Shown here: in pieces, positions 2,203 through 11,724 of the stretch
Layout of the letters: the number at the start of each line of letters is the position of its first letter
How positions within the stretch are numbered: the stretch's first letter is position 1
Source of the DNA: Bacillus sp. FJAT-45037
GTDB lineage: Bacteria; Bacillota; Bacilli; Bacillales; Bacillaceae_D
Assembly: GCF_002797325.1 (NCBI RefSeq)
Contig: NZ_KZ454938.1
Coordinates: 2,492,267 to 2,556,266 of the forward strand
Direction: 5' to 3'
DNA: 64,000 nucleotides
Translations under genes and position numbers: made by a program
The notes under the pieces: model-generated
What the model was told of the DNA's origin: nothing
Databases searched by the model: none
Seen by the model: only the letters and a program-made list of their open reading frames with translations

Positions 2203-3405
2203 TTAGAAAGGATTTTTTCCTTTTTTCAGTACTAACCCTGGTCCACCTAATAGAAACAGGTAGCGGTTATCAATCATTTTCTTCATGAAGTTTGCTTGAG
2301 CACCGAATAGTTTACGTGTTCCAACAACTCCAATGGCTTCTTTCCCACCAAGTGATGCAACAGTTCCTTTAATGTCTGGTTTGAACGTCTTAAGTGAAGA
2401 TCCACCTTTAATGAGATGCTTGATATTCTCAGCACATACCTCAGCCATCTGCATTGCAATTTGTGCAGTTGGTGGGTATGGACGGTTAATCTCCTCATTA
2501 ATAAGAAGTGCACAGTCACCAATAATGAAAATATTGTCATGCCCTGGTGCACGTAGATCAGCTTCAACTTTAATACGTCCACGCATCGCTTCGAATCCAG
2601 ACTTCTCAATGATTGAGCTTCCACGAACACCCGTCGCCCAAACCACTGTCTCAGCCTTGATTTCTTCACCATCCGCAAGAAGAACACCTGTCTCTGTTAC
2701 TGCTTTAATTGGGCAGTTGATCTTGAACTCCACTCCACGAGATTCAAGAAGGTTCATGCCGTATTCAACAAGCTCAGGATCGAATCCTGGTAATGCTGTT
2801 GGTGCTGCTTCAATCACGTATAATTTTACTTTTTCACGAGGAATATCATAGTGACTGCAAAGCTCAGGTACACGTTCTGATAATTCACCGATAAACTCAA
2901 TACCAGTGAAACCAGCACCTGCTACGATAAATGTTAATAGCTCATCATGCTTGTCCTCTGTGTTGTTGTACTTAGCGAAGCAATATTCAATATGCTCTTT
3001 CACTTCACGTGCGCCATTTACTGTCCATTTACTGAAAGCATGCTCGTGAACACCTGGTACGCCAAATGTTTCAGCTTCTGCACCTAGTCCAACGACTAAG
3101 TAATCAAAATCAAGTTCGCCGTTTTCAAGAATAATTTTCTTTTCCTCACGCTTGATCTCAACAACTGTGTCTTTAACAAACTTGATTTTTTTGAAGTCTA
3201 GTACATCTTTGATTTGCATACGTGTTTTTTCTGGAGAAAGAGTTCCTGCAGAAGGCTCATGTAACCATGTTGTTTGGTAGTGGTACTCATGCTTGTTAAC
3301 AAGCGTGATGCTTGCCTCATTATGACCTAGTTGCTTAGCAAGACGTGATGCTGTAATCATTCCGCCGTACCCAGCACCTAAAAGGACGATACTTGGTTTT
3401 TTCAA
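2203..3405 (-). CDS. yumB: Type II NADH dehydrogenase-like flavoprotein YumB
   Basis: About 400 residues with two dinucleotide-binding folds: an N-terminal FAD site (VLLGAGYGGM) and a second GAGFTGIE motif near residue 170 for NAD(P)H, then the FAD-closing IFIIGDCA. This is the single-subunit NDH-2 type that passes electrons from NADH to quinone at the membrane face. TTG at 3405 is preferred: GGAAGTG lies six bases upstream and the protein then begins as in B. subtilis YumB. The ATG at 3420 has only a weak site. A Rex-like operator lies in the promoter. Confidence 0.88.
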   Translation of the reverse strand: MKKPSIVLLGAGYGGMITASRLAKQLGHNEASITLVNKHEYHYQTTWLHEPSAGTLSPEKTRMQIKDVLDFKKIKFVKDTVVEIKREEKKIILENGELDFDYLVVGLGAEAETFGVPGVHEHAFSKWTVNGAREVKEHIEYCFAKYNNTEDKHDELLTFIVAGAGFTGIEFIGELSERVPELCSHYDIPREKVKLYVIEAAPTALPGFDPELVEYGMNLLESRGVEFKINCPIKAVTETGVLLADGEEIKAETVVWATGVRGSSIIEKSGFEAMRGRIKVEADLRAPGHDNIFIIGDCALLINEEINRPYPPTAQIAMQMAEVCAENIKHLIKGGSSLKTFKPDIKGTVASLGGKEAIGVVGTRKLFGAQANFMKKMIDNRYLFLLGGPGLVLKKGKNPF

Positions 3406-9645: not shown

Positions 9646-9882
9646 TTAAAACATTGGATTTTCTTCTAAGTAGGTGTAAATATTTTCAACGAGTTCTTCG
9701 TTTGTTTCACCAGCTATATATTCACCATTCACAAGGGCAAACGGAGTGACTGCACAACTTCCACAATTCCCTAGACAACCATACTCAATAATGTCTAGGT
9801 TTGGATCACGTTCAAGTTCTTCCATCGCCTTTTGCGAACCACTTGCAAGGTTACTTAAACAAAATTCAATAATCGGACGCAT
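9646..9882 (-). CDS. yuzB: YuzB-like DUF1450 protein
   Basis: 78 residues, starting MRPIIEFC, with four cysteines (FC, then CLGNCGSC). The spacing resembles thioredoxin-like ferredoxin folds, but metal binding is not shown. A longer reading frame reaches 10047, but GAGGTG lies just upstream of the ATG at 9882 and the protein then matches B. subtilis YuzB in length. Function unknown. Divergent from the TetR-yutJ gene. Confidence 0.8.
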
Positions 9883-10015
9883 AGCTTTCACCTCAAATTT
9901 CTTGTCTTTAATCCTACTCGCCCTCTTGCAAGAAGTCAATAAAATCAGTGATTTCCTCGAGTACAATTCATCAAAAATAGACGCTTGCTCTACTCTTAAA
10001 AAATTCACAAATTTG

Positions 10016-10067
10016 TTGTTATTTTCTGTATAACTCGTTATAATCAAAACTGACCGTGGTCATTTTT
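10016..10067 (+). promoter_or_regulatory. Promoter and palindromic operator of the TetR-yutJ gene
   Basis: A near-consensus promoter, TTGTTA (10016) - 17 bases - TATAAT (10039), is followed at once by a palindrome centred on TGACC-GT-GGTCA (10051-10062). Its flanking A and T runs also pair, giving 22 bases at 10046-10067. The site covers the start of transcription and ends right at the AAGGAG ribosome site. This is where a TetR-family autorepressor would bind. Confidence 0.7.
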
Positions 10068-10080
10068 AAGGAGCGACGAC

Positions 10081-11724
10081 ATGAGCGAGAAAGCAAAGAA
10101 AGAACAAACAAAAAAGAGGATTGAACACGCAGCTAGACAGCTTTTCGTTGAGAAAGGCTTCTCTCACACGACTGTTCAAGAAATTACGAAAGCTGCAAAT
10201 GTCGCAAAAGGCACGTTCTTTAATTATTTTCCTACAAAAGAATCCATTATGCAATCGCTTGCATTTGAACGCATCGAAGCGGCTCTTCCTTATGTTGAGC
10301 AAGATCATTTAAAGAATCTTCCTCTGATCGTCCGAATCCGTTCTTATTTACAGTTCATTTTAAGTGATTACGATATTCATCCTAGATTGACGATCCAAAT
10401 ATGGAAACATGTGATTGAAGAAGACCAAGCACTCCTTCCTCATTGGGAAACCCTACTGATCGATGCCAAGCAAAGAGACGATATTCAATCATCCGTTGCA
10501 CTTACGACTTGGAGTCACATTATTAATAGTCATGTATCTTACGGTTTACAAACATTTGCACATGAACCGACAAAGGCTCAGTTGCTTACAAAAGTCATGG
10601 CTTTGATCCATGCAAGCTTAGAAGCAATCACGGAACAAAGGAGACATTCACATATGAAAAAACTTGTCCTTTTAGGTGCTGGTTATGGGAATATGCGCAT
10701 TTTACAGCGTTTACTACCTAATGACCTTCCAGAAGATGTTGAAATTACTTTAATTGACCGACTTCCTTATCATTGTTTAAAGACTGAATACTATGCTCTT
10801 GCTGCCGGAACAGTAGCTGATCACCATTTACGTGTCCAATTTCCAGAAGATTCTCGTCTAACGATTAAGTATGAAACCGTTTCAGACATTCATTTAAACG
10901 AACGCACAGTCGAACTTAGCAATGGTGAATTCGTTCCCTATGACTCATTAATTATTGGGCTAGGTTGCGAAGATAAGTACCACGGTGTTCCAGGAGCCAA
11001 TGAACATACATATGGGGTTCAAACAATGGGCGCGACACGACGTACGTACGAAGCATTAAACAACGTCCGTCCAGAAGGTGTCGTTTCGATTGTTGGTGCA
11101 GGGCTTAGTGGCGTAGAACTCGCGAGTGAACTTCGTGAAAGCCGACCAGACCTTTCGATTAAATTATTTGACCGAGGCGAGATCATCTTATCCATGTTCC
11201 CTCTTCGCTTAAGTACGTATGTTCAAAATTGGTTTATCGACCATGGGGTAGAAGTAATCAACAAATCAAACATTACCAAAGTTGACGAAGATTCACTTTA
11301 CAACCATGATGAACGCATCGAAAGTGATGCAATCATCTGGACAGCAGGTATTCAACCTGTCGAAGTCGTTCGTAATCTTGATGTTGAAAAAGATAAACAA
11401 GGGCGTGTTCTATTAACTCCGCAACATTTCTTACCATCAGATGAGAATATCTTTGTTGTCGGTGACTGTGCGAGCCTTCCCCATGCCCCAAGTGCTCAAC
11501 TTGCGGAAGGCCAAGCCGAGCAGATTGTAACGATCCTTAAAAAACAATGGAACAACGAACCCCTTCCAGAAGAATTACCACGCATCAAACTAAAAGGCGT
11601 GCTCGGCTCCCTTGGTAAAAAACACGGCTTCGGCCTAATGGGTGAACGCACCCTCCTAGGCCGCGTCCCACGCGTACTAAAAAGCGGCGTACTATGGATG
11701 TACAAACACCACTCAGGGAATTAG
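10081..11724 (+). CDS. yutJ: TetR-family regulator fused in frame to YutJ-type NADH dehydrogenase
   Basis: 547 residues in one open frame. Residues 1-190 are a TetR/AcrR regulator: a helix-turn-helix with TTVQEITKAANVAKGTFFNYF, then a helical ligand domain. From Met192 (base 10654) it is a complete YutJ/NDH-2-like flavoprotein of 356 residues with VLLGAGYG, VGAGLSGVELASEL and FVVGDCASLPHAP. The join is in the same frame with no stop, but an AAGGAGA site sits nine bases before the internal ATG. Free YutJ could therefore also be made. A palindromic operator lies upstream. The pairing suggests a regulator that senses its partner's flavin or redox state (inference). Confidence 0.82.
   Translation: MSEKAKKEQTKKRIEHAARQLFVEKGFSHTTVQEITKAANVAKGTFFNYFPTKESIMQSLAFERIEAALPYVEQDHLKNLPLIVRIRSYLQFILSDYDIHPRLTIQIWKHVIEEDQALLPHWETLLIDAKQRDDIQSSVALTTWSHIINSHVSYGLQTFAHEPTKAQLLTKVMALIHASLEAITEQRRHSHMKKLVLLGAGYGNMRILQRLLPNDLPEDVEITLIDRLPYHCLKTEYYALAAGTVADHHLRVQFPEDSRLTIKYETVSDIHLNERTVELSNGEFVPYDSLIIGLGCEDKYHGVPGANEHTYGVQTMGATRRTYEALNNVRPEGVVSIVGAGLSGVELASELRESRPDLSIKLFDRGEIILSMFPLRLSTYVQNWFIDHGVEVINKSNITKVDEDSLYNHDERIESDAIIWTAGIQPVEVVRNLDVEKDKQGRVLLTPQHFLPSDENIFVVGDCASLPHAPSAQLAEGQAEQIVTILKKQWNNEPLPEELPRIKLKGVLGSLGKKHGFGLMGERTLLGRVPRVLKSGVLWMYKHHSGN

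Follow-up and report, generated by a model that had tools for sequence, protein, structure and literature searches.

A single gene in the window (the whole stretch of 64,000 nucleotides of Bacillus sp. FJAT-45037 DNA that was analysed) encodes a TetR-family regulator joined in frame to a YutJ-type flavoenzyme, and comparison with its relatives indicates that the fused gene has a dedicated putative operator, dependent on the TetR half, and an internal ribosome-binding site and start codon that are under selection inside the longer frame. The TetR half occupies residues 1–190 and the YutJ part begins at Met192, and there is no stop codon between the halves anywhere in the frame at 10081–11724 (+). 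The elements of the locus are as follows, in window coordinates.

10016–10021, plus strand: predicted −35 box TTGTTA, 17 nt from TATAAT.
10039–10044, plus strand: predicted −10 box TATAAT, at a distance from the operator that is conserved in fused genes.
10046–10067, no strand assigned: putative operator palindrome, with core TGACCGTGGTCA at 10051–10062, proposed from sequence and conservation.
10068–10073, plus strand: Shine-Dalgarno AAGGAG of the fusion, 7 nt before the ATG at 10081.
10081–11724, plus strand: tetR-yutJ fusion gene, ATG start, 547 aa, ~61 kDa, a single open frame.
10126–10254, plus strand: TetR_N helix-turn-helix, residues 16–58 (Pfam PF00440, E 1.3e-14).
10255–10629, plus strand: TetR C-terminal helical domain of dimerisation/ligand type, residues 59–183, from AlphaFold2 helices and weak conservation.
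10638–10643, plus strand: internal Shine-Dalgarno AAGGAG, in frame within the linker, with a 10-nt spacer to the ATG at 10654.
10654–11724, plus strand: YutJ domain and probable free YutJ, 356 aa, ~39 kDa, from the internal ATG at 10654 (Met192).

The preliminary description had placed TetR and YutJ in one stop-free frame, with an internal ATG at Met192 and a palindrome at the promoter; its coordinates all match the sequence, and the joined frame is borne out both by the open reading frame and by its relatives. In the Pfam scan the TetR_N domain scores 54.1 bits against a cut-off of 24, as expected of a TetR/AcrR family helix-turn-helix, and Pyr_redox_2 matches residues 194–473 (E 3.2e-29).

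The fusion is widely distributed. A search for this domain order across the Bacillaceae had been proposed at the outset, with a stop codon in related genomes as the finding that would speak for two separate genes. With the whole protein as query, the fusion was found to be kept free of stops in 34 of 36 genomes of the same family, an outcome that favours fusion, the YutJ part standing alone in the other two (G014 and G026); and it recurs in several other families of the Bacillales. Among the 397 genomes of the order these are six further families (f5, f35, f42, f45, and parts of f46 and f7), YutJ occurring alone in most of the remaining ones, and the fusion is also carried, at 52% identity, by a genome assigned to a different order (G497). 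In a first set of 57 fused loci, and again in an enlarged set of 90, every locus keeps the frame open. When the TetR half alone was the query, every one of the 39 genomes matching below E 1e-20 carries it in fused form, the next-best matches being partial and near 1e-16, and in the genomes searched the two halves were never found as adjacent separate genes. There is one match below E 1e-90, the level of YutJ, per genome, and the fusion is thus the sole YutJ and not a spare copy. Named carriers include Alkalihalophilus pseudofirmus OF4, Halalkalibacter, Alkalicoccobacillus, Shouchella, Salibacterium, Marinococcus, Sinobaca, Alteribacillus, Salsuginibacillus and Pseudalkalibacillus, names that give an impression of alkaline or saline habitats. 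A sequencing error, or a simple operon of two genes whose intervening stop was overlooked, has a negligible probability and is ruled out, since dozens of genomes sequenced independently, complete ones among them (e.g. A. pseudofirmus OF4, NC_013791.2), have the frame open as well; we found no point in its support. On plasmids the TetR half has only weak matches, at 36% identity or less among the matches listed. The open-access literature mentioning 'yutj', to which the search was confined yielded no description of a TetR-YutJ fusion, and the architecture may already be listed in domain databases.

The enzyme half is YutJ, to our knowledge an enzyme almost unstudied. In the PDB its nearest entry is 9a5s (titled YutJ-Fer), in which B. 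subtilis YutJ and ferredoxin are modelled together by an integrative crosslinking approach; chain 9a5s_A is 68% identical over 355 columns by sequence and aligns with Z 33.3 at 64% identity by structure, so that it was right to call the enzyme YutJ-type. Structures of NDH-2 (4nwz and 5na1) come next, at Z of about 27 over some 303 residues and 22–25% identity, with a sequence match to 4nwz at E 3.9e-30. The half has the two-dinucleotide-binding flavoprotein fold of NDH-2, with FAD and NADH sites, and the glycines of both glycine-rich dinucleotide sites (G199/G201 and G339/G341/G344) are invariant. The likeness to NDH-2 extends to the (S/T)AQ(I/L)A stretch, SAQLAEGQ aligning with PTAQIA; YutJ is however shorter (356 aa) and stops short of the greater part of the C-terminal membrane region. 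With regard to a possible membrane anchor and quinone site, the alignment ends at NDH-2 position 380 of 405, and residues 506–547 of the fusion are poorly modelled. The earlier designation as NDH-2 thus stands for the fold and not for the function, which is unproven and uncertain: because the nearest PDB entry models YutJ with ferredoxin, we do not use the name NADH:quinone oxidoreductase for this enzyme.

The join between the halves has three conserved features. First, the span across it, residues 179 to 191, is 13 residues long in 57 of 57 loci and then in 90 of 90, constant in length despite residues that are mostly variable. Second, the linker of the fused genes runs in every case through a ribosome-binding site. 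Third, the codon for Arg187 is AGG in all 42 non-redundant sequences, against a background of 8.2% among the arginine codons of these genes, which is the most extreme codon conservation of the 218 columns, with no other column close; and Met192 is ATG in 43 of 43. The simplest reading of this pattern is that selection acts, within the longer gene, on the Shine-Dalgarno sequence and start of a free YutJ. Since both are kept at the nucleotide level, free YutJ is very probably produced as well, from the internal start; the earlier suggestions that a ribosome site and ATG remain at the join, and that fusion and free enzyme could both be made, are upheld, the second as probable on the strength of the codon-level conservation. 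In the mRNA fold predicted for this region, most of the internal Shine-Dalgarno sequence is paired, and free YutJ may therefore depend on upstream translation or be a minor product.

This same conservation lends itself to another explanation, in which joining of the frames is a side effect that the cell tolerates: the stop of a tetR gene lying upstream would have been lost, free YutJ would be the working enzyme, and the YutJ tail of the fusion would be passive. The join is indeed the Shine-Dalgarno and ATG leader of a free yutJ read as linker and kept at the nucleotide level, and the enzyme outlives loss of the TetR half. However, across the 90 fused loci the join shows neither a stop nor a frameshift nor any change in length, and with variable linker residues and synonymous sites near saturation between genera, neutral read-through should have regained stops somewhere. 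We regard this explanation as improbable.

Upstream of the fusion, a TTGTTG/TTGT run is kept at the −35 position across the fused genes. The palindrome reads AAAACTGACC-GT-GGTCATTTTT, its arms pairing at 9 of 10 positions around a TGACC..GGTCA core, and since it begins just past TATAAT it covers the expected +1. Immediately downstream of the −10 box, TGACC-NN-GGTCA occurs with no more than one mismatch in 57 of 57 fused loci, and the 700 bases before the start contain no exact copy in any of the 76 free yutJ loci, the lone near copy before a free gene in the first set being a two-mismatch relic in G014. The proposal that the fusion has an operator of its own thus gains support from comparative sequence, the putative palindrome tracking the TetR half and decaying where that half is lost, in the position near its own promoter that is usual for a TetR/AcrR operator. 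There are three exact copies in the genome from which the window was taken, one in the promoter and two within open reading frames; a wider regulon was considered and set aside, as one of those two falls within a pyrG-like gene and the other within a 772-aa ORF. With a slightly longer pattern, the only match in most of 16 other genomes is the fusion's own promoter. Separately, a conserved element, TTCACAAAWTTGTTG, starts just ahead of the −35 region and overlaps it in many fused genes (window ~10005–10021). Its TTCACAA half resembles half a Rex box, and dual control could be conceived.

Two natural losses of the TetR half bear on both operator and internal start, and provide ready-made comparisons. 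Halalkalibacter hemicellulosilyticus (L117) and G014 (L049) retain the promoter and the YutJ Shine-Dalgarno and ATG without the TetR half, and their operators have decayed to TGACAATATCA and TGACTAGGGTAA respectively. This decay ties the operator to the TetR half. In both lineages the surviving gene starts at the Shine-Dalgarno and ATG equivalent to the internal site, which can thus carry the gene alone. Free YutJ of Bacillus and its relatives is likewise the same enzyme behind the same kind of leader, differing in having neither TetR half nor operator. A profile search of six-frame translations of the free loci found no TetR remnants upstream of free yutJ; an apparent likeness in one locus (L081) is attributable to chance.

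A tree built on the YutJ part places 43 of the 47 fused rows, together with three free ones (L117, L049 and L168), in a single supported group. Outside this group are Pseudalkalibacillus and a row titled Rossellomorea, as well as Bacillus taeanensis and G497. Six changes between fused and free are required, and one old fusion followed by several losses is the simplest reading of the tree, the counts alone not separating gain from loss; a single old fusion is suggested because G497, which clusters with its own relatives in the tree, has the join in common with the others along with a one-mismatch operator. The third free gene of the mainly fused group, L168 (G069), has a long branch and no operator. 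A record titled Pseudomonas sp. ISL-84 (L129) has a Cytobacillus-like yutJ that groups with Cytobacillus, and is probably mislabelled or contaminated.

Constraint is uneven along the protein. Mean pairwise identity is 67% in the helix-turn-helix (residues 8–58), the most conserved region of the TetR half, 35% in the TetR C-domain, where it drops to 12% at lowest, and 73.5% in the YutJ part. Values of dN/dS are 0.03–0.04 for YutJ and 0.06–0.25 for the TetR C-domain where estimable, low enough to indicate that the TetR half is under purifying selection. In an AlphaFold2 model built from 31 fused sequences the TetR part is confident (helices 53–72 to 165–184, pLDDT mostly 85–91) and has the all-helical C-domain of TetR/AcrR proteins, with putative ligand-binding and dimerisation roles; the linker at 185–190 is predicted to be disordered (pLDDT below 50), the NDH-2-like domain has poorly modelled parts at 229–253 and 506–547, and at a pTM of 0.50 the relative placement of the two domains is not fixed. 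A structure search was barely informative on the TetR half, its results being filled by flavoenzyme matches.

We propose that the gene specifies an autogenous repressor-enzyme with two products, in which the YutJ domain serves as sensor, a reading towards which we lean by a narrow measure. The 61 kDa fusion would dimerise through its TetR part and, by binding its one TGACC-NN-GGTCA operator where transcription starts, block its own promoter. The state of YutJ (NADH-reduced FAD, NADH binding or engagement of an acceptor, for which ferredoxin and membrane quinone are candidates) would weaken operator binding, if the direction is as we suppose, and the supply of enzyme would track demand through relief of repression. 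Initiation at the internal site would give, from the same mRNA and in an amount that may be small, free YutJ as non-repressing enzyme, possibly in mixed oligomers with the fusion. A point against this reading is that many Bacillaceae do well with an unfused YutJ and no operator of this kind.

The main rival to YutJ as sensor is that the TetR half works as a conventional repressor whose C-domain binds a small molecule of its own (such as a quinone, a fatty acid or a phenolic compound), with the fusion serving only to couple the amounts of repressor and enzyme. TetR C-domains commonly bind small ligands of their own, which is the usual mode of most TetR repressors and counts against YutJ in this role; the C-domain here is complete, helical in the AlphaFold2 model and under purifying selection, and the predicted disorder of the linker means that tight allosteric coupling of the domains is not evident. 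Against this, an independent ligand alone leaves the never-separated halves and the constant 13-residue span unexplained, and with the C-domain at such low identity a widely shared pocket is not evident. The stronger conservation of the YutJ part over the C-domain fits YutJ better as sensor, a weak argument, and a diverging C-domain remains compatible with a ligand of its own. On balance we think this rival rather unlikely, and keep to the YutJ domain as the candidate sensor.

The nearest parallel in logic is trifunctional PutA, a flavoenzyme whose N-terminal DNA-binding domain makes it an autogenous repressor of its own genes, and in which reduction of the flavin by proline moves the protein from DNA to the membrane (PMC5293562). 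The parts differ, PutA combining a ribbon-helix-helix with PRODH and P5CDH domains and the fusion a TetR with a YutJ/NDH-2-like domain, and Pfam shows only TetR_N and pyridine-nucleotide/FAD-type domains in the latter; PutA-like logic with no shared descent is our best reading of the likeness. Set beside PutA, the fusion has a putative internal start for free enzyme and a proposed single-site autoregulation. Compared with TetR/AcrR repressors, it shares the TetR_N helix-turn-helix, the helical C-domain and a palindromic, here putative, site over the promoter start, and differs in that its repressor of ~190 residues runs on into a whole flavoenzyme. In Bacillus, control of ndh by Rex already lets the NADH state feed back on an NADH dehydrogenase gene, as is proposed here. 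Rex is a separate winged-helix NADH-binding protein, whereas the fusion's putative sensor would be the enzyme joined to a TetR repressor, and neither the DNA-binding nor the CoA/NAD-binding domain of Rex was seen in the Pfam scan or among the NCBIfam matches listed.

Taken furthest, the locus would be a one-protein redox switch, in which the catalytic state of an NADH-oxidising flavoenzyme sets the DNA affinity of its fused TetR at a single promoter, with non-repressing free enzyme made in addition: an evolutionary parallel to PutA, put together from parts of unrelated origin, that alkaliphilic and halophilic Bacillales have retained. We put this forward tentatively, at slightly below an even chance. 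If the enzyme domain does sense, it would be an example beyond PutA, with different domains, of a respiratory-type flavoenzyme directly controlling its own gene, and YutJ would gain a measurable read-out, the occupancy of a single operator reporting the state of the enzyme. The fusion is present in A. pseudofirmus OF4, a much-used model alkaliphile for which the oxidation of NADH at high pH is a topic of long standing.

Two neighbours of the fusion may be mentioned. A second NDH-2-like gene lies ~7 kb away (window 2278–3393, minus strand), is 33% identical to the YutJ part and is YumB/Ndh-like by similarity, and comparable second NDH-2-like matches occur close to yutJ in many relatives. About 200 bp from the fusion is a small divergent gene of YuzB type with cysteines (window 9646–9882, minus strand).
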